Source of the DNA: an uncultured Bacteroidales bacterium
GTDB taxonomy: Bacteria > Bacteroidota > Bacteroidia > Bacteroidales > Muribaculaceae
Assembly: GCA_902800715.1 (NCBI GenBank)
Contig: CADCFN010000004.1
Coordinates: 1 to 64,000, forward strand
Length of the DNA stretch: 64,000 nt
Direction of reading: 5' to 3'
In this document: positions 42,958 to 63,700 of the stretch, piece after piece
Layout of the letters: the number at the start of each line of letters is the position of its first letter
Position numbering within the stretch: the stretch's first letter is position 1
Translations under genes and position numbers: made by a program
The notes under the pieces: generated by a model
Database searches by the model: none
What the model was told of the DNA's origin: nothing
What the model saw: only the letters and a program-made list of their open reading frames with translations

Positions 42958-45900
42958 ATGAAGAGACTATTATCAACTCTTTTGGCCGTGTGTGTCATTG
43001 GAATGACTGCATGGGCCAGCAAGACCGTTAGTGGTAAAGTCGTTAGTGCCAGCGACAATGAACCGTTGATAGGTGCCACCATTCAGGCTATCGGTTCGTC
43101 ACAAGGTACTTCCACCGACATTGACGGTCAATTTACAGTAACCGTTAACGACAACGTGACACAACTGCGTGTTAGTTGCGTGGGCTACAAGACCCAAGTT
43201 GTTGCGGTTGCCAGTTATGTAACAGTAGCCCTTGAGGATGCCAACACCACACTCGATGAGGTAGTTGTAACCGCTATGGGTATTAAACGTGAAGCCAAGG
43301 CGCTGGGTGTGTCGGCCACTCCTATCAAGGGTGACGTGATTGCTCAAGCCCGCACCAACGACATCATGTCGAGTCTTGCCGGTAAGGTGGCTGGTGTGCA
43401 GATTGGCGAAACATCTTCCGATCCTGGTACTTCCAAGTCGGTTATCATCCGTGGTGTCAGCTCGTTGTCTGGCAGCAACCAGCCGCTGTATGTAGTGGAT
43501 GGTGTGCCCCTGAACAACACTGCTACTTACAGTAGCGATGGTCTGAACTCGGGTTATGACTTCGGTAACGGTGCTAGTGCCGTTAACCCCAACGATGTGG
43601 AGAGCATGACCATTCTGAAGGGTGCTGCCGCAACCGCCCTGTACGGTAGCCGTGCCGGTGCCGGTGTTATCTTGATTACCACCAAGAAGGGTTCCAAGCA
43701 GAACCGTGGCGTGGGTATCGAGTATAACGGCGGTCTCCAGTGGGAGTCTGTAATGCGCCTGCCGCAGATGCAGAACAACTTCGGTATGGGTTGGTATGGT
43801 GACCACACCGAGATTGAGAACGGTTCTTGGGGTCCCGCGTTTGACGGTTCTCAGCAGCTCTACGGCTGGGTTTACAACCATAGCCAGAATATGAAGTCCT
43901 ACCTTCCCATCAAGAACAACATGAAGGACTTCTTCAGCACCGGTTTCCGTTACAACAACAGCATCTCTTTCAATGGTGCTACCGACAAGAGCACCTACTT
44001 CGTATCGCTGTCACAGATTAACGATAACGGTATTATCCCCTACGATGCCGATACTTACACCAAGTATACCGTATCGGCCCGCGGTAGCCACCGCGAGGGT
44101 AACTTCACCTTCAGCACCTCGTTGAACTATGCTTTCCAGCGCAACCACTTCGTGACCACTGGTCAGAAGACGGGCTCGATGTACAACAGTATCATGCAGA
44201 CTCCGCGTGACATTTCTATCGTCGAGATGAAGGATCTGGACAATCCGTTCAACACTCCGGGTTACTACTACACCCCCTACGGTGTTACCAACCCCTACTA
44301 CATTATCAAGAATTATCAGAACGAGTATGAGCAGGAGCGCTTCTACGGTAACCTGCAGCTCGATTATGCATTCCTGAAATATTTCACTGCCACTTACCGC
44401 TTCGGTCTGGATACCAACACGGGTCACCACAACTATGGTTCTCCCAACATGTCTGCTCTTTACAAAGACACGCCCAACTGGGATGATGCTTTGGGTACGC
44501 TGACTGGTGAAGTATCACAGAGCATTACCCGTCGCCGTGAGATTGACCAGAACTTCATGTTGACCTATGACCAGCAGATTCTGGATGATTGGCACGTGAA
44601 TGCACAGCTCGGTTTCAACGGCAATGAGCGCAGCTATAAGTATCTGGGTTCGTCGGTAACCAACCTGACCATCCCCATGTGGTACAACCTGGGCAACAGC
44701 GCCGAGATTCCCACAACCTCACAGTCTGAGTGGAAGCGCCGCTATCTGGCTGTATTCGGCAGCGCCGAGTTCGCATGGAAGAATATGGTTTACTTGACCC
44801 TCCAGGGCCGTAACGACTGGTCTTCGACTCTGCCCGTTAACAACCGTTCTTACTTCTATCCTGGTGTGAGCTTGTCGTTCCTGTTCAGCGAACTGCTGAA
44901 ACCTGAAATGCGCAATGCTATCACCTTCGGTAAATTCCGTGTCGCTTGGGGTCGCACCGGTAACGATGCCGGCGTTTACATGACCAATTCAGTATTTGCT
45001 CAGGCTGCAGCCGCTACCAGTGGTTTCGGTAACGGTAGCTCGTTCCCCTTCACCAAGGTGGGCGTGAATGCTTACTCACTGGGTAACACCCTGGGTAGCC
45101 AGGATCTGAGTCCTGAGATGACCACCGAGTTTGAGCTTGGTCTGAACATGGCCTTCCTGCAGAACCGCATCAGCTTCGATGCTGCTTACTATGATCGCAA
45201 CACCGACAAGCAGATCTTCTCACTGAATATGGATCCCGCCACCGGTTACACTGCTCAGAACATGAACCTGGGTAAGATTCGCAACCGTGGTGTCGAGTTG
45301 TTGGTTAGCTTGACTCCTGTCAAGGTGGGTGGTTTCCAGTGGGATATCAACTGGAACTATACCAAGAACTGGAGTAAGGTTATCAAGCTGCCCGATGAGT
45401 TGGGTGGTATCGCAACCATTTACGGTCTGAGCGGCGGCACGAGCCTCTACGCTATCGAGGGTGAGCCTCTTGGCGTATTCAAGGCTTATGTTCCTCAAAT
45501 GACTGAGGATGGCAAAATCATCTGCGACGGCAACGGTCAGCCGCTGGTTAATCCCGAGCAGCAGATTGTCGGCAGCATGAACTATAAGTATTTGATGGGC
45601 TTCGGTACTACGCTGAGTTACAAGGGCATTAGCCTGACCGCCAACCTCGACGTTCGTCACGGCGGTATGCTGTACTCGCGCACCAAGGACATCACCTTCT
45701 TCACTGGTAATGCTATCCAGACTGCATTCAACAACCGTAACCCGTTCATCGTTCCCAACTCTGTACAGCAAGTCCGTGACGATGATGATAACGTGATCGG
45801 CTATACCGAGAACACCACCCCGCTCGACGAGACGGGTATCTTCACCTACTGGGATGCCGGTGGTTCCGAGCTGGACCGCGCATTCCTCGTGGACAAGAGC

Positions 45901-46146
45901 TATGTGAAGCTGCGTAACGTGATCCTCAGCTGGCAGCTGCCCAACAAGTGGTTCTCCAAGTGCTTCATCACTGGTGTTAACCTGTCGTTCTTCGGCAACA
46001 ACTTGTTCCTGTGGACGCCTAAGAGCAACACCTTCATCGATCCCGAGACTTCTACTTTCGGTAACGACCTTGAGGGTAACTATGGTGAGTTCTCGGCTAA
46101 CCCGAGTTCACGCAAGTTTGGTTTCAATGTGCAGGTTAAATTCTAA
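42958..46146 (+). CDS. SusC/RagA-family TonB-linked outer-membrane transporter
   Basis: 1062 residues. Signal peptide (MKRLLSTLLAVCVIGMTAWA), carboxypeptidase-like repeat about 22-95 (VSGKVVSASDNEPLIGATI), TonB-box-like DEVVVTAMG near 100, and a plug about 115-230 with NQPLYVVDGVPLNN and MTILKGAAATALYGSRAGAGVILITTKKG. A 22-strand-type barrel follows, ending NPSSRKFGFNVQVKF, the normal terminal strand. It imports an oligomer bound by the SusD partner encoded 18 bases downstream. No glycosidase, sigma or hybrid regulator is adjacent, so the ligand could be glycan or peptide. Confidence 0.97.
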   Translation: MKRLLSTLLAVCVIGMTAWASKTVSGKVVSASDNEPLIGATIQAIGSSQGTSTDIDGQFTVTVNDNVTQLRVSCVGYKTQVVAVASYVTVALEDANTTLDEVVVTAMGIKREAKALGVSATPIKGDVIAQARTNDIMSSLAGKVAGVQIGETSSDPGTSKSVIIRGVSSLSGSNQPLYVVDGVPLNNTATYSSDGLNSGYDFGNGASAVNPNDVESMTILKGAAATALYGSRAGAGVILITTKKGSKQNRGVGIEYNGGLQWESVMRLPQMQNNFGMGWYGDHTEIENGSWGPAFDGSQQLYGWVYNHSQNMKSYLPIKNNMKDFFSTGFRYNNSISFNGATDKSTYFVSLSQINDNGIIPYDADTYTKYTVSARGSHREGNFTFSTSLNYAFQRNHFVTTGQKTGSMYNSIMQTPRDISIVEMKDLDNPFNTPGYYYTPYGVTNPYYIIKNYQNEYEQERFYGNLQLDYAFLKYFTATYRFGLDTNTGHHNYGSPNMSALYKDTPNWDDALGTLTGEVSQSITRRREIDQNFMLTYDQQILDDWHVNAQLGFNGNERSYKYLGSSVTNLTIPMWYNLGNSAEIPTTSQSEWKRRYLAVFGSAEFAWKNMVYLTLQGRNDWSSTLPVNNRSYFYPGVSLSFLFSELLKPEMRNAITFGKFRVAWGRTGNDAGVYMTNSVFAQAAAATSGFGNGSSFPFTKVGVNAYSLGNTLGSQDLSPEMTTEFELGLNMAFLQNRISFDAAYYDRNTDKQIFSLNMDPATGYTAQNMNLGKIRNRGVELLVSLTPVKVGGFQWDINWNYTKNWSKVIKLPDELGGIATIYGLSGGTSLYAIEGEPLGVFKAYVPQMTEDGKIICDGNGQPLVNPEQQIVGSMNYKYLMGFGTTLSYKGISLTANLDVRHGGMLYSRTKDITFFTGNAIQTAFNNRNPFIVPNSVQQVRDDDDNVIGYTENTTPLDETGIFTYWDAGGSELDRAFLVDKSYVKLRNVILSWQLPNKWFSKCFITGVNLSFFGNNLFLWTPKSNTFIDPETSTFGNDLEGNYGEFSANPSSRKFGFNVQVKF

Positions 46147-46164
46147 TCAAAAACTGAAACAGAC

Positions 46165-47646
46165 ATGAAAAAGATATATTTATTTCTGACTATTGCAGCA
46201 GTGTTGAGCCTGTCGTCTTGCAATCTTGACATCAACGACAACCCCAACTACCCGTCGAGCAGTGATGTAACGCCCGACCTGGTATTTCCTGCTGCCGAGA
46301 ATGCCGTTGCTGCTACTGTGGGCGATGCCATGTTCAACTATGGCGGTTTCTTTGCACAGTACTTTGAGCAGCGTCCTGAGGCCAACCAATATAATAATGA
46401 GGCCGAGTTGAATATCGACGAGTCGACCAACCTGTTTGACCGCTGCTACCGCACCATGTATGCCGGCGCCCTTGCCGACATCAAGAATGTGATGGACCGC
46501 ACCGCTAACAAGAGCGACTTGTTTGCCTGCACCGTTCTGCGTGCTTATGCTTTCCAAGTTCTCGTTGACAACCTGGATCAGGTGCCTTACAGCGAGGCTC
46601 TGCAGGGAAGTGAAAATTCCAATCCCGTTTGGGATAAGGGTGAGGATGTATATAAGGGTGTTCTTGCCGAGATGGATGCTGCCGAGGCTGCTCTCGAAGG
46701 CGAACTGATGTCCTTGACCGACCCGATGCTCGACAAGAGTGTCAACCAGTGGCGCGGCTTTGCCAACGCCCTGCGCCTGCGCATGTACCTGCGTCTGATT
46801 GACGGTGGTATCAACGCTGGTGAGTATCAGACTAAGGCTCTTGCTCTGGTCAATGCCGGTGACTTCTTTACCGGTGACGTGGCATGGGATGTTTACAGCA
46901 ACTCAGAGGGTCAGTACAACCCCTGGTATGATGTAGCTCGTGCCCTGGGTACCAAGAACCATGTTGCCTCCTATCCCATCGTTAGCTACTATCTGGATAC
47001 CAATGACCCCCGCATCGGCTATGCTATCATGAAGAATGACGATGGCAACTATGTGGGTCAGATTCCTGGTGCCAAGACCGTCTATAAGTCATGGGGTGTT
47101 GAATGGAAGAACAAGGACGTGAGTGCCATTGACTACACTCCCGCTGTGTTTGCTCCCATTTATCTGTTCACCCAGAGCGAACTCCAGTTCCTCATTGCTG
47201 AGACTCAGATGCGTTGGGGTAACAAGTCTGCTGCCAAGGCTGCCTATGAGGCTGGTGTACAGGCCGACTTTGCTTCTCGCGGCATTGCAATGGGTAACTT
47301 TTTGAATGGTGCCCGTGTGAATTGGGATGGCCAAGTCAGCGACGCTGCCCGTCTGAACCTGATTTATATGCAGAAGTGGGCCGCCCTGTTCTATCGTGAT
47401 CACATGGAGGCTTGGAGCGAGGTTCGTCGTACCGATGTACCGGCTACCAGCCCTGAGGATGGTGGTACGATTTTCAGTGATCCGAGTGTTTACACTCCTG
47501 GCCAGATGATTGTTCCGGCGCTGAACTATATTCAGGCTGGTGGCTTGTGCAAGCGTGTTCCTTATCCTAGCACTGCCCGTCAGCTGAACAAGAACACTCC
47601 CGAGGCCAAGTTGCTCAGCGACCGTGTTTTCTGGGATGCCAAGTAA
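46165..47646 (+). CDS. SusD/RagB-family nutrient-binding lipoprotein
   Basis: 493 residues with lipoprotein signal (AAVLSLSSCNLDIND, Cys 19). Length and the helical TPR-like core fit the SusD-like (SusD_2 type) family: CTVLRAYAFQVLVDNLDQVPYSEAL, QWRGFANALRLRMYLRLID, and C-terminal ALNYIQAGGLCKRVPYP. It forms the lid over the SusC transporter at the cell surface. An N-terminal acidic-rich segment follows the Cys (DINDNP), consistent with surface export. Confidence 0.95.
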   Translation: MKKIYLFLTIAAVLSLSSCNLDINDNPNYPSSSDVTPDLVFPAAENAVAATVGDAMFNYGGFFAQYFEQRPEANQYNNEAELNIDESTNLFDRCYRTMYAGALADIKNVMDRTANKSDLFACTVLRAYAFQVLVDNLDQVPYSEALQGSENSNPVWDKGEDVYKGVLAEMDAAEAALEGELMSLTDPMLDKSVNQWRGFANALRLRMYLRLIDGGINAGEYQTKALALVNAGDFFTGDVAWDVYSNSEGQYNPWYDVARALGTKNHVASYPIVSYYLDTNDPRIGYAIMKNDDGNYVGQIPGAKTVYKSWGVEWKNKDVSAIDYTPAVFAPIYLFTQSELQFLIAETQMRWGNKSAAKAAYEAGVQADFASRGIAMGNFLNGARVNWDGQVSDAARLNLIYMQKWAALFYRDHMEAWSEVRRTDVPATSPEDGGTIFSDPSVYTPGQMIVPALNYIQAGGLCKRVPYPSTARQLNKNTPEAKLLSDRVFWDAK

Positions 47647-47696
47647 TAGTGAACTACGCGAAAAAGTAGAAACAACTAAAATTTAATCGAAGAATT

Positions 47697-48491
47697 ATGA
47701 AGAAAATATATTTATTTGGTTTAGTGGTACTTGGGATGCTGGCGTTCTCATCTTGCAACGATGATAATGACGAGCTCACCGACTCACGCTTGACCTACTA
47801 TGCTGACCTCACCATGGAGGGCGACGAGTTCATGATAGTACCCGTGGGCACTGCCTATGTTGAACCTGGCTGTAAGGGTGTCCTCTATGACAAGGTAACT
47901 GGTGAATTCAAGGATATTTCTAGCCAGATTTCGATTGGTGGTGATAAAGTGGATCCCAACACGATGGGTTTCTATTATATTACCTATTCGGCAGCTGGAA
48001 GCGATGGTTTCATTTCAACTGTAACGCGCACAGTGTGTGTCTGCGACCCGACGGTTACCCTGGATATCTCGGGTTCGTATAACACCGATATGAACGCTTC
48101 CATGTATTATGGAAAGGTCAATGGTGTGGTTGATTGGTATCCGTTTGCTGTGTTTGCCGCCAACTATGGCTACACCACGCAGTGTACAGGCATCACCTTT
48201 AAGAAGTTGGCTCCTGGTTTCTTCCAGGTGAGTGACCTCTTGGGTGGCTGGTATGATCAGATTCGTGGATTTGGAGTGCAGTACACCGGCGGAATCGGCA
48301 TGATGACTGGATATGTAAGCGCCGACAACGAGGGCAACATTGACCTGATTAGCAGTTACATTGGAGCCTGGGGAGATGCTTTGGACTATATTGAAGACGG
48401 TAAGTATGATGCTGAGACCGGTACAATTAGCTACTTCGCTTCCTATGCCGAAGGTGCCGTTGTCATGAGTATTGTCCTTCACAAGCAATAA
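47697..48491 (+). CDS. accessory surface lipoprotein of the SusC/SusD locus (Ig-like, DUF5011/DUF5012 type)
   Basis: 264 residues, lipobox GMLAFSSCNDDND (Cys about 19). The first part has YADLTMEGDEFMIVPVGTAYVEPGCKGVLYDKVTG...NTMGFYYITYSAAGSDG, an Ig-like fold with the VEPG phrase of DUF5011-like modules. The second part (YNTDMNASMYYGKVNGVVDWYPFAVFAANYG...) looks like a beta-rich ligand-binding domain. It occupies the SusE/SusF-like position after SusD and may help bind or present the substrate. The family assignment is from memory and moderate. Confidence 0.7.
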   Translation: MKKIYLFGLVVLGMLAFSSCNDDNDELTDSRLTYYADLTMEGDEFMIVPVGTAYVEPGCKGVLYDKVTGEFKDISSQISIGGDKVDPNTMGFYYITYSAAGSDGFISTVTRTVCVCDPTVTLDISGSYNTDMNASMYYGKVNGVVDWYPFAVFAANYGYTTQCTGITFKKLAPGFFQVSDLLGGWYDQIRGFGVQYTGGIGMMTGYVSADNEGNIDLISSYIGAWGDALDYIEDGKYDAETGTISYFASYAEGAVVMSIVLHKQ

Positions 48492-48520
48492 CAAATAACC
48501 TATTTAAATTGAATAAAATT

Positions 48521-49087
48521 ATGAAGAAATATATTTCAATTTTTGCTTTGGCACTCGTGTTGGGACTTGGTTTGGCATCTTGCAATACCGAGACCAATGA
48601 GCCCGCTGGCGGCACAGCTGTTGAGAAGATGGCCGGCCACTGGATGGTTGACATTGATGCCGTCGATGATAACGGGGTTCCCATTGATGGGGGCGAACAT
48701 TACTTTGGATATGACGAGGCAAGAATCCCCTTGTTTACCTACAACACCGCCGCCGATGAGGACAACAAGATGTGGATTGATGACAATGGCTGGTTTGACC
48801 TGTCGTGGTATTATGGAAATAAAGCATATCCCAACTATTCCTTCAAGTGTGTGGTGAACGTTGACCAAAACAACCTCACCTTCACTTCAAACGATGCCGA
48901 AAACTTCTCTGGCGATTTCGGCATCACCATCGAGGACGGAAAGATTCTCAAGGGCGCGGGAAGACAGAGTAATGGTTCGCCTGCCGACTCCATCGTTTTC
49001 TACGTGAAGTACACCGAGGATCCCTGGTATCCTGATGATGGTTATGCTAAATACAAGATTAGTGGTGTCCGCTATGCCGGATTCTAA
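48521..49087 (+). CDS. small surface lipoprotein, lipid-binding/calycin-like
   Basis: 188 residues from ATG 48521 (MKKYISIFALALVLGLGLASC); an ATG at 48509 is in frame. The mature part is beta-rich (EKMAGHWMVDIDAVDD, NYSFKCVVNVDQNNLTFTSNDAENF, YAKYKISGVRYAGF), resembling the putative lipid-binding lipoproteins (Lipid_bd type) that follow SusC/SusD pairs in Bacteroides. It is the last gene of the four-gene operon, followed by a strong terminator. Confidence 0.7.
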   Translation: MKKYISIFALALVLGLGLASCNTETNEPAGGTAVEKMAGHWMVDIDAVDDNGVPIDGGEHYFGYDEARIPLFTYNTAADEDNKMWIDDNGWFDLSWYYGNKAYPNYSFKCVVNVDQNNLTFTSNDAENFSGDFGITIEDGKILKGAGRQSNGSPADSIVFYVKYTEDPWYPDDGYAKYKISGVRYAGF

Positions 49088-58896: not shown

Positions 58897-60612
58897 TTAC
58901 CAACCGGGGTTCTGGCCAATCTGCGGGTTCAGGTTGCGCTGATCGTCAGGAATGGGGAACAGGTTGTACTTGGGATCCCACTTGCGGGGAGCACCGTTGT
59001 TCGAGCAGTTGATGTAACCATCGTTGTCAACATTAATCTCATCAAGGCTGATGGGACTGTATCCGAGAACGTATGCACCACGGCACAGGTTGGGATTTTT
59101 GTCGGTATCGAGCAGCGAGAGCTGGTTCCAACGCAGCAGCGAGTAGTAACGGTCGTTCATGCAGTACATCATCTCGACGCGGCGCTCACGGCGAACCTCC
59201 CAAATGAGGGGGCTCACACCCATGTTGTTGGCGGGATCTGCCTCAACAGTGGTGAAGAGGTGGGGCATGCTCACGCGGTCACGCAGCAGGTTGATGGACC
59301 TGTCAAGGTCAGTCTGAGTGATGTTACCCAGCTCGGCGCAAGCCTCGGCATAGTTCAACAGAATCTCGGCATACCAGAAGATGGGAGCATCGGTCCAGTT
59401 ACCATAGGTGCTCTGACGGTTGGTGTTGTCGATCAGGTTGGTATCGAACAGGAATACACCATAACCCGTCGAAGCGGTGGACTGAGCACCGCCAAAGCGG
59501 GCGTAACCACAACCGGGGAATTGGAGAATCTTGTCAACTTGAGCGCTCAAGCGCGGGTCGCGGTTAGCCAGCACGTTGCTGATGTCGATGTGGGGAGCCT
59601 CGCCCAGACCAGAGTTGTCATCGAGAGTGACAACGGTGCCATGGTCGGTCTTGTTCAGAGCGGTGGTAGCCAGGGGCTTACCATCCTTGAACAGGTAGCT
59701 GTCGAAGGCATCCTTGGTCATACCGTTCACCTGGGTAGAACCGCAGGTGTAGTCGATAGTACCATGAGCAAAGGTGCTCTGGATGTACTTCTTGTACATG
59801 ATCATCTCATTGTTACCGGCCAGGTCAAGCGAGTTGAAGTTAGCCTGGTAGTTGCTGTTCAGGCTGAACTTGCCCGAGTTCATGATTTGCTCACAAGCGT
59901 TCTTGGCCTCGGTGAGGAACTTGTTGGCGCGCTCATTGTTCTTGGTCACATACTTGCTGTAGTCACCCTCATAGAGACAAACCTCGGCCTTCATGGCCAG
60001 AGCAACCCACTTGTTGAAAGCGGTGCGCGAGTTGTCATTGTCGGTGATGTTGGTGCAAGCGAAGTTCAGGTCCTCAAGCACCTTGTCCATCACGTTGTTG
60101 CGGGGCTGACGGGGACCATACAGGATATCCTCATCACTGGGATCCAGCACCTTGTCCACCCAATAGCAGTCACCATAGGCGCGCACGAGCTTGTAGTGCT
60201 GCCATGCACGGTACAGGCGACCGATACCCAGCCAGTTGGCCTTCTTGGCATCGTTCATCGAAGCTACGGTAGGCACAGCGGCGATAAGGGTGTTGGCACG
60301 ACGGATTTCCACATAGGGAGTGTTCCATGCAGCAGCGCTACCGGGAACATTCATAAAGGTCCACTTGGTGATACCGGTAGAAGCCTGGTCGTCGTTCAGT
60401 GTGTTGAAGTAGTAGTCACCACTGCCGCTACCATAACCCGTGAAGGTGTTGTAGAAGTAGTTGGCGAACAACTGGACGTTGGTCTCACTGGTAAAGTAGT
60501 TGTCCTTGGTAAACTGATCGTAGGGTTCAGTGTCGAGAACATCATCGCACGAAGCCAACGAGAGCATGAAAACACCCAGGCCAACCAGTATAATTGATTT
60601 GAAAAGTTTCAT
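58897..60612 (-). CDS. SusD/RagB-family nutrient-binding lipoprotein (second locus)
   Basis: 571 residues with lipobox MLSLASCDDVLDTEP (Cys about 22); the DVLDTEPYDQF opening is classic for SusD. TPR-like helices and typical phrases follow (RLYRAWQHYKLVRAYGDCYWVDKVL, APIFWYAEILLNYAEACAELGNITQTDLDRSINLLRDR, WEVRRERRVEMMYCMNDRYYSLLRWNQL) and a C-terminus DDQRNLNPQIGQNPGW. It is 88 bases downstream of the SusC gene on the same strand. It forms the lid for that unusual transporter. Confidence 0.96.
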   Translation of the reverse strand: MKLFKSIILVGLGVFMLSLASCDDVLDTEPYDQFTKDNYFTSETNVQLFANYFYNTFTGYGSGSGDYYFNTLNDDQASTGITKWTFMNVPGSAAAWNTPYVEIRRANTLIAAVPTVASMNDAKKANWLGIGRLYRAWQHYKLVRAYGDCYWVDKVLDPSDEDILYGPRQPRNNVMDKVLEDLNFACTNITDNDNSRTAFNKWVALAMKAEVCLYEGDYSKYVTKNNERANKFLTEAKNACEQIMNSGKFSLNSNYQANFNSLDLAGNNEMIMYKKYIQSTFAHGTIDYTCGSTQVNGMTKDAFDSYLFKDGKPLATTALNKTDHGTVVTLDDNSGLGEAPHIDISNVLANRDPRLSAQVDKILQFPGCGYARFGGAQSTASTGYGVFLFDTNLIDNTNRQSTYGNWTDAPIFWYAEILLNYAEACAELGNITQTDLDRSINLLRDRVSMPHLFTTVEADPANNMGVSPLIWEVRRERRVEMMYCMNDRYYSLLRWNQLSLLDTDKNPNLCRGAYVLGYSPISLDEINVDNDGYINCSNNGAPRKWDPKYNLFPIPDDQRNLNPQIGQNPGW

Positions 60613-60700: not shown

Positions 60701-63700
60701 TTACTTCACGATGATCTCGCAGATGGATACACGGTTCCAGCTCAGTTCATCAAACATTTCGCTGATGCCCTGGCCCTGAGCATTGATGCGCTTGGCATCG
60801 ATACCATACTTCTTCACGAGCATATCCTTCACGCTGGCGGCACGGCCCTCAGCGAGCTTGATGTTGTGGTCGGCAGGACCGTCCTTAGAAGCATAGCCGT
60901 TGATGGTGCAGTTAGCCTCGGGATGGCTCTTCATGTAAGCAGCAATGCGCTCTACGTTGGGCTGCTGGTCGGTGCTGATGGCAGTCTTGTTCACGGGGAA
61001 GTGAACCAGGATGGTCATGTACTGCAGCGACTTGTCGATCATGCCGCTCTTGCTCTTCAGGCAATCGTTCAGGTCCTTCTGGAGCTGAGCGTTGCGGTTG
61101 TTGGCAGCGTTGAGCTGGTTCTGCAGGTCGTTGATGCGTGCGTTGGCTGCGCTCTGGGCATCGGCGAGCTGAGCGCGCAGGTCATTGATCTGAGCGTTCA
61201 GTGCGCTGTTGTCAGCGGGAGCGGCAGCGCTACGGCTGTTGCTGCCGAAGGTCAGTTGCAGACCTACACTGTAGGTACGCATGATAGGATCGGTACGACC
61301 CCAAACGGCGTTACCATAGCTACCCACACCAGTGTTGATCTCGGGATCGAGACCGGTATGGTTGCTGTGGTTGATGATGTCGAACAGGTTGTCGGTCGAA
61401 GCATAGATGCGCAGCTTCTCGATCAACGCCTTGCGGGTGATGTGCTGCGGCAGGGTGTAACCCAGGGTGATGTTCTTCATGCGCAGGTAGCTCATGTTCA
61501 CGAGATACTTGGTCTGAGGATAGAAGTTGAACTTACCCAGATCGAGGATGTCGCTCGAAGCGGTACCACGGCCAGCGCCACCAGCCCACATGCGGGGGAA
61601 TGCAGCGTTCTGGTCAATCCTTTGGGCGGCATAGTCAGCCTCGGTCACATAGCTGGTCTGGTTGGTGTAGATAGCGTCAGCACCACGCATGAACGGCATC
61701 ACGAATGCAGACTGGGTCCACATGTCGCGCTTGCCCACGCCCTGCAGGTAGAAGTCAACGTCGAAGCCCTTCCAGGCAGCGCCCAGACGCAATGAGTACT
61801 GATAGCGCGGGGTGAAGTTACCGATGCGCTTCAGGTCACCGTGATCCTCGGGAGTACCCTTACCCCAGTCAATCACGCCGTCACCGTTCAGGTCCTTGAA
61901 CTTGATGTCACCAGGGCCGTAAACAAAGCCATTGGACTGCAACTTGGTCTGGTCGGCAACACCCTGCTTGTAGGTGCCGTCGGCGTTGAAGTCGTTGAAA
62001 TCGAAGTAACGGTCGGTCTCAAAGCCCCAGATTTCGCCATACTGCTTACCAGAGTAGTTGGTGTTGATCATGTTATTGCTGTCCCACTTAGTGATCTTGG
62101 TCTTGTAGTCACTCACGATAGCGGTAGCATAGAAATCAACATTGCCGATGCGGTTGCGGTAGTCAACACTAACTTCCCAACCACGGGTGCGCATATTACC
62201 AGCGTTCTCCCATGCAGCGCTTGAACCGATGACTGAAGGCAGAGCCTTACCGGGAGCGAGCATGTCCTTATTCTCACGCTGGAACCAGTCGGCGGTCACA
62301 TTCAGGTGGCCATTAAAGAAGGCCAGGTCAAGACCCACATTGAGGGTATGGATTTTCTCCCAGGTCAGCGATTCCGAAACCATCTTGGGAGCTGAGAAGT
62401 AGTCATACTTGGAGTTACCGGTACCAATCCAGTTCACGTCGTTGGTCTGCTTGGCCATGGTCTCGAGGAACATGTACTGGCCAACCTCCTGGTTACCAAT
62501 CATACCATAAGAAGCGCGAATCTTGGCATTGCTGATGGTGTTCTTGATAGGAGCCCAGAAAGCCTCCTCACTGATGCGATAACCGATAGAACCTGAGGGG
62601 AAGAATGCCCACTGGTCCTTCTTGGGGAACTTGCTCGAACCGTCATAGCGACCGTTCAACTCAATCAGGTAGATACCCTTGTAGTCATAGTTGATGCGGC
62701 CGAAGAAGCCTGCCGAGCCCCAGTGGTCATGCCTGTGACTATAGCTGTAGTCCTCGTTAGTGAGAGCAAGCTCAGGCATGTTAAGATCCTGAAGACCGTG
62801 ACGCTCATAGTACAGGTACTCATAGTCGGTCTTATCCACGTTGGCGCCCACCTTCAGGTTGAAGTTGTGAGCATCCTTGATGGAGCGGCGCCAGTCGAAG
62901 TAGCCGTTAGCTACATGGTTCTCGGTGAAGGCGCGAGAGGTCTCGATGAAGGTTGAACCCGTGATGTCCACAGGACCTTGAGGATTCAGACCCCAAGTGT
63001 TATAGACAATCGAGGGAAGACCGATGCCTTTATACCTGTTGGTCCTCTTGATGAAGGTGTAGTCGGCATTGAAGCTCAAACCGTAACCGAAGTCGATTTT
63101 GCCAAATACGCCCAGACTCATGTTGTTCATCTTGTAGTAGCAGTCACCACCAGTGTTGCGACCGCCGATCATCGTGCGGGCGTCATACTGCTTGCCGTCG
63201 TTAGGATCCTCGAAGTAGCCGTAAGGGCCGAAGAACGAACCCCAGCGCCACAGGTACTGATAGGTACCGGCACCGCGCTTGTAGGGAGTGTTATAGGTCC
63301 TGTCAACATAGCTGACACGGGTACCCAGTTCCAACCAATCGGTAGCACGCACCGATACATTGGCCGTAGCGTTGTACTTGCGGAACTTGTCGGGGTTGAA
63401 GTTCATCAATGACTGCTTCTGGTTGTAGCCAACCGAGGTGTAGAAATTGATGCGGCCCGAGTTGCCAGTTACGCTCAGGTTGTGGCTCTGTGAGGGAGCA
63501 TGGTTGTTGAAGATGATGCCGGGCACATCCCAGTTGGCATAGTAACCGTTCTCATCATAGTCGTCACCATAGACCATCTTGCGATACTTTTCCTTGATGT
63601 CGCCATGCTTCTTGATCCAGTTGTTGATACCGTTCTGGAAAGCCTCGCTGTCCATGTACATACCGAAGAGCTCCGATGCAACGCCCATGCGGTGGTTCAC

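Follow-up and report, generated by a model that had tools for sequence, protein, structure and literature searches.

A SusC transporter with an OmpA tail gives a known transporter family a new architecture, made from a known domain. In the analysed window, that is, the whole stretch of 64,000 nucleotides, one susC gene continues in frame past its last barrel strand into a coiled coil and an OmpA_C domain, and within the genus, whose members live in digestive tracts, tails of this kind sit on barrels of five lineages, most of them distant from each other. This evolutionary pattern, one tail on several barrels, should surprise specialists. A literature search covering titles and the beginnings of abstracts, with most subscription papers beyond reach, returned no description of a SusC-OmpA fusion. 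On balance, we favour the reading that the tail is the periplasmic half of an OmpA porin that was captured and spread among SusC transporters, and that it would serve as a covalent wall tether for SusCD near TonB.

Architecture of the fused gene

The reading frame has no stop between the window edge and the stop codon at 60701-60703. The 5' end lies beyond the window, and the whole frame encodes 1279 amino acids from a GTG start or 1277 from an ATG. The SusC/RagA profile TIGR04056 scored 610 bits on the window part of the protein (cut-off 368.25) and 818 bits on the whole of it, and its match ended at residue 918, the F of GLQLTF. It was followed by a match to the OmpA profile PF00691 at residues 1001-1081 (50.9 bits, cut-off 27.2). 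Beyond F918 the tail comprises 181 residues, and the protein thus does not end at the terminal barrel strand as a SusC is expected to. Coordinates of these features are given in Table 1.

Table 1. Features of the fused susC gene and of the genes compared with it (window positions unless a contig is named).
Feature	Position	Strand	Basis
susC-OmpA fusion, 3' part of the gene, window part of 1099 residues	60701..64000	(-)	Frame open up to the window edge
Last beta strand of the fused barrel, residues 906-918, ending GLQLTF	61247..61285	(-)	Model and end of the TIGR04056 match
Linker behind the barrel, low model confidence	61208..61246	(-)	Models
Long heptad-patterned helix, 55 residues in the tail model	61043..61207	(-)	Models and sequence pattern
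OmpA_C fold, with the PF00691 match at 60758-61000 inside	60704..61018	(-)	Profile, model, Foldseek
SusD partner lipoprotein, PF07980 and PF14322, following the fused susC after 88 bases	58897..60612	(-)	Profile search
Second susC-ompA fusion, divergent neighbour, 700 bases past the window edge	Contig C4:64700-68506 (L009 6701-10507)	Divergent from the first	Frame and tail match
Comparison SusC without tail, standard end ..NVQVKF	42958..46146	(+)	Frame end read

The sequence-only reading had proposed most of this architecture. The barrel end followed by an in-frame continuation, the repeated INDLxxQL in the coil (two units are present), the OmpA_C-like fold and the standard end of the other SusC in the window were all recovered, and the combination of a SusC barrel with an OmpA domain is supported by both profiles above their curated cut-offs and by the models. 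The tail had been put at about 184 residues, so coordinates and length were correct to within a few residues. The further claim that the tail is specific to this locus held only partly: several susC genes of the genus carry it, the divergent neighbour among them. The tail of this neighbour is 61% identical to that of the window gene, and the gene is followed by a SusD-like_2 partner of 628 amino acids. A tail unique to the window gene is ruled out by this neighbour and by the other fusions of the genus.

The draft assembly of the source genome (27 contigs) contains 17 SusC frames above the TIGR04056 cut-off, two of which are fused. Since the remaining 15 are untailed, transport in general does not need the tail. 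At a distance of ~4.5 kb from the two fused genes, at C4:73039-76119, lies an unfused SusC with a SusD; proximity to the pair is therefore not enough to bring a tail.

Structure and topology of the tail

The model of the whole window part was weak (1099 residues, 49 alignment rows, pLDDT 58.5). It placed the last strand at residues 906-918, a helix at 932-982 and an OmpA-like fold at 995-1098, and its best PDB matches were SusC-family structures. Its alignment took in 48 of 74 public loci and left out L158, which has stops in frame. The tail modelled by itself (73 rows, L131 and L161 left out) reached pLDDT 82.3 and consisted of a single helix at positions 20-74 followed by the strands and helices of OmpA_C; its best Foldseek matches were the C-terminal domains of OprF and Acinetobacter baumannii OmpA (5u1h, 3td3; E ~5e-11). 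Among solved sequences, the window gene was nearest to the dextran SusC 8aa4, and the neighbour to BT_2264 (5fq6).

The final strand of a SusC-type barrel finishes at the periplasmic face, and the tail is therefore taken to be periplasmic. The placement given in the earlier reading follows from this topology.

The helix is related to the coil of the genus OmpA porin, and most of the porins measured have a shorter one. When all seven heptad phases were tried, large hydrophobic residues in the best phase occupied 50% of a/d positions versus 6% elsewhere in both tails tested; in the coil of the porin from the same genome the values were 62% and 0%. The distance from the start of the coil to the first OmpA strand was 61-66 residues in fused tails (62 of 64 matched by the search pattern), whereas in porins (14 of 16 matched) it was 40-57 residues in 13 and 66 in one. 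This heptad pattern and the greater distance would also fit a coil that is itself the working part, zipping together the two SusC chains of the SusCD dimer, or a tailed SusC and OmpA porins, with the OmpA domain secondary; OmpA-like proteins of Porphyromonas gingivalis do form trimers (excerpt of PMC6112661). However, constraint on the coil is weaker than on the OmpA part, as its median dN/dS is higher in all five barrel kinds, and we regard a zipper as quite improbable.

Occurrence in the genus and beyond

SusC frames with an OmpA tail were found in 26 of 61 genus genomes (the source genome and 60 others), among the matches listed. In 31 of the remaining 35, the listed match fell only in a frame of 389-449 residues, an OmpA porin, and four had only a weak match below the list limit of E ~7e-11. 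The 26 genomes yielded the 64 fused frames that were read; at least a dozen further listed places, at contig ends, in partial frames and in some whole ones, were left out.

A scan of contigs from named genomes gave 74 distinct tail loci, all uncultured or metagenome-assembled and labelled Muribaculaceae, Prevotellaceae, Porphyromonadaceae or Bacteroidales. Where a host was given, it was goat, sheep, roe deer or water buffalo. The 912 codons upstream of the tail were open in 49 of the 49 named public loci checked, many of which seem to be the same records as the genus genomes; in L158 this frame was not open. A false join of susC and ompA, either by misassembly, which the earlier reading had named as a possible refutation, or by annotation, is left with practically no room by the same junction in 26 of 61 separate assemblies (among the matches listed) and by the open frames of these public loci. 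In genome G032 the fused copy that lies beside the A1 copy has a broken frame, of which 822 amino acids are left in L067 8499-10964, with stops in L158.

Outside the genus, every listed match to the OmpA part lay in a frame shorter than 900 residues. This was the case in the family (297 genomes, 30 genera, E <= 1e-40, at most 11 candidates scored per genome), in the order (393 genomes, 207 genera, a query of 357 amino acids, at most 5 candidates per genome) and in the phylum (395 genomes, 171 genera, E <= 1e-10, at most 8 candidates per genome), samples that could miss independent fusions with a different OmpA.

Origin of the tail

Among the matches listed, the closest relative of the tail outside the fusions was the C-terminal half of the genus OmpA porin (~415 residues), coil included. 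The source genome encodes its own such porin on contig C15 (414 amino acids, L004 559-1800), whose coil and OmpA_C domain are 61% identical to the tail. In a tree of the coil and OmpA domain, the 64 fused tails were split from 16 porin tails by one branch with support of 98/99; the bootstrap of this tree was unsettled, four porin rows were long, and the porins came from the genus or an outgroup. Judged from these sequences, the tail seems to be a copy of part of the OmpA that the bacterium itself encodes.

Barrel lineages

According to sequence marks, the 64 fused barrels comprise 12 of kind A1, nine of A3, 12 of B1, 17 of B2, 13 of C and one fragment. The window gene has a barrel of the A1 kind and its divergent neighbour one of the B1 kind. 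A1 and A3 barrels are ~50-54% identical and B1 and B2 barrels 34-36%, while A1 and B1 share 33% over 298 N-terminal columns and 22% over the 495 columns of the rest.

Orthologues of these barrels were looked for in sister genomes, namely 22 of the 35 in the genus for which no fused frame was listed. Orthologues of the A1 barrel, 69-72% identical, were present in six of the 22, and those of the B1 barrel, 67-71% identical, in five; in both cases the printed ends stop at the barrel. A divergent pair of an A kind and a B kind, as in the window, was seen in five of six sister loci (L235, L236, L237, L240 and L241). The exact A1/B1 divergent pair occurred only in L235 of the six printed, and L238 had B2 and B1 in tandem. 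Homologues stopping at LTF with a separate ompA-like gene next door had been named as evidence against a fusion: the sister orthologues do end at the barrel, but the OmpA porin of the source genome lies elsewhere, on C15. Such orthologues point to the fusion being the derived state and not to its being false, and by parsimony we infer that the unfused state is the older one.

In a FastTree phylogeny of 117 barrels (62 fused, 55 unfused), where the program warned about some deep joins, the fused label required seven changes, all of them forced by the starred branches. Quick maximum-likelihood trees of subsets forced two changes in the A group (39 rows) and four in the B group (45 rows). These counts give no direction of change. 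The 117-row tree omits the fused fragment L067 8499-10964 and L088, barrels shorter than 700 residues, repeats and another five frames that were unfused, four of them truncated and the fifth interrupted at the end of its locus.

With one tail clade on several barrel lineages, either the tail moved or an unsampled OmpA paralogue was its source more than once. It seems that a single captured module came to be shared by several transporters. Homogenisation of tails within genomes was not found overall, as 1008 of 2000 shuffles reached the observed value; the largest within-over-between difference was that of B1-B2 (0.843 vs 0.818). Two single tails disagree with their barrels: in L085 6427-10212 a B2 barrel carries an A-like tail, and in L087 3009-6869 an A1 barrel carries one that groups with B/C tails.

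Selection on the tail

Median pairwise dN/dS across the five barrel kinds was 0.12-0.16 for the OmpA part, 0.17-0.28 for the coil and 0.06-0.20 for the last 400 barrel residues, the pairs not being independent. In kinds A3 and B1 the barrel was more constrained than the tail. Such low values indicate purifying selection on the tail, about as strong as on the barrel, and a further argument for the tail being selected is that several distant barrels carry one module.

A useless tail, produced as a by-product when recombination copies the 3' end of ompA onto susC genes, would be in line with the conflict between tail and barrel trees and with the tails of L085 6427-10212 and L087 3009-6869, which look swapped. 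It is nevertheless very hard to reconcile with the dN/dS of the OmpA part, with intact frames in 26 genomes against one broken copy met (L067 8499-10964 / L158) and with the lack of overall within-genome homogenisation in the shuffles, and we consider it very improbable.

The diaminopimelate pocket

In PorE, the side chains of Asp576, Asn584 and Arg591 hold the diaminopimelate of the stem peptide (excerpt of PMC7192894). The pocket of TagL consists of Asp486, Asn494, Leu497 and Arg501; wall binding is lost on mutation of Asn494, Leu497 and Arg501, and also depends on Ser498 and Ala502 (excerpt of PMC8253398). At the same spacing, in alignment with Omp38, the tail has Ser126, Asn134, Leu137, Ala138, Arg141 and Ala142, and Asn134, Leu137, Arg141 and Ala142 were invariant in 73 of 73 aligned tails.

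The pocket Asp is replaced by Ser in all 64 fused tails and all 16 porins (residue 126 of P0002, window 60887-60889). The motif reads GYAS instead of GHTD, in porins as well as in tails. An acidic residue stands two positions past this Ser in 80 of 80 tails and porins; a role for it in the pocket is a guess. Ala138, at the position of TagL Ser498, is invariant in the 64 fused motifs (LA.GRA). The OmpA_C motif is given as LSxxRAxxVxxxL in PMC5053529; LxxxRAxxVxxxL is present in 80 of 80 tails and porins, with Ala for the motif Ser in the fused tails.

With Ser for the pocket Asp and Ala for TagL Ser498, the classical binding network cannot be assumed. Since Ser for Asp is common to tails and porins, the pocket of the fusion is of the porin kind. 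The tail is a putative peptidoglycan-binding module, and given the invariant remainder of the pocket we hold this function to be fairly probable.

Gene neighbourhood

A Pfam scan of 18 neighbouring frames, looked at for the substrate, gave matches for 17 and none for one. These were four SusD-type proteins, a metallo-beta-lactamase fold, Lipid_bd, BT_2262-like, MscS, phosphoribulokinase/uridine kinase, Obg GTPase, glycosyltransferase, Band 7, NfeD, YbeY, GidA, phosphoribosyltransferase and UvrC; no glycoside hydrolase was found among the 18. The region 42958-49087 of the window contains in a row the unfused susC, a SusD-like_2 gene, a BT_2262-like surface protein with an Ig-like domain and a Lipid_bd protein, and resembles a BT2262-type set.

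Proposed role of the tail

In the mechanism we propose, the part attached in frame after the last SusC strand is an OmpA porin half, a coiled coil with OmpA_C like those of the genus's own porin. Its capture would have been a single event, or would go back to a single paralogue since lost, and recombination would later have carried the module from one susC gene to another. As the C-terminus of the barrel would face the periplasm, the helix of ~55 residues (~8 nm at 0.15 nm per residue) could bring the OmpA domain to the peptidoglycan layer, and there this domain may bind the diaminopimelate of the stem peptide. A tailed SusCD would in this way stay close to the wall, where TonB can reach it. 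A tether is likely. That the same tail was gained by several import pores suggests that these importers are tied to the cell wall.

It is less clear that selection has favoured the tail for the sake of transport and not of the envelope; a benefit to transport is a possibility to which we give somewhat short of even weight. The tail may also tether the wall with a purely mechanical gain, abundant SusC proteins acting as extra outer-membrane anchors and import being unaffected. This would agree with the tail being the same module as in the OmpA porin, with OmpA-like trimers of P. gingivalis that are thought to stabilise the outer membrane (excerpt of PMC6112661), and with tails on several distant barrels, as if the cargo were irrelevant. 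A general anchor need not, however, prefer two of the 17 SusC proteins and leave 15 untailed, unless those two are the most abundant, and we consider a solely mechanical role unlikely.

Taken further, our wall-tether reading describes a transplantable anchor: an OmpA half taken once and grafted on five mostly distant SusC lineages might yield a wall-tethered SusCD with a built-in distance between peptidoglycan and TonB, whose Ser-for-Asp pocket would bind in an undescribed way. We put this forward tentatively. Orthologous transporters with and without the putative wall-binding tail occur within a single genus, and their gene settings are similar; such natural pairs offer a way to address what tethering does.

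Comparison with known systems

Compared with standard SusC/RagA proteins, the window gene has the same plug and barrel profile above the cut-off and a SusD partner downstream; standard members finish at the last barrel strand, whereas here 181 more residues follow. The tail shares with the genus OmpA porin the coil, the OmpA_C domain and the Ser replacing the pocket Asp, while the N-terminal part of the porin is different and smaller and its coil is shorter. In P. gingivalis PorE and the type VI secretion protein TagL, an OmpA_C domain likewise fixes an envelope machine to the wall, but those are secretion machines that keep the classical Asp, and the machine here is a nutrient importer. A parallel in function is Neisseria RmpM, a peptidoglycan-binding OmpA-family protein that is reported to complex the TonB-dependent transporters LbpA, TbpA and FrpB and to affect growth on lactoferrin (excerpt of PMC8497027). 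RmpM is a separate protein, whereas in the fusions described here the domain lies within the transporter chain, and the two are analogues only.
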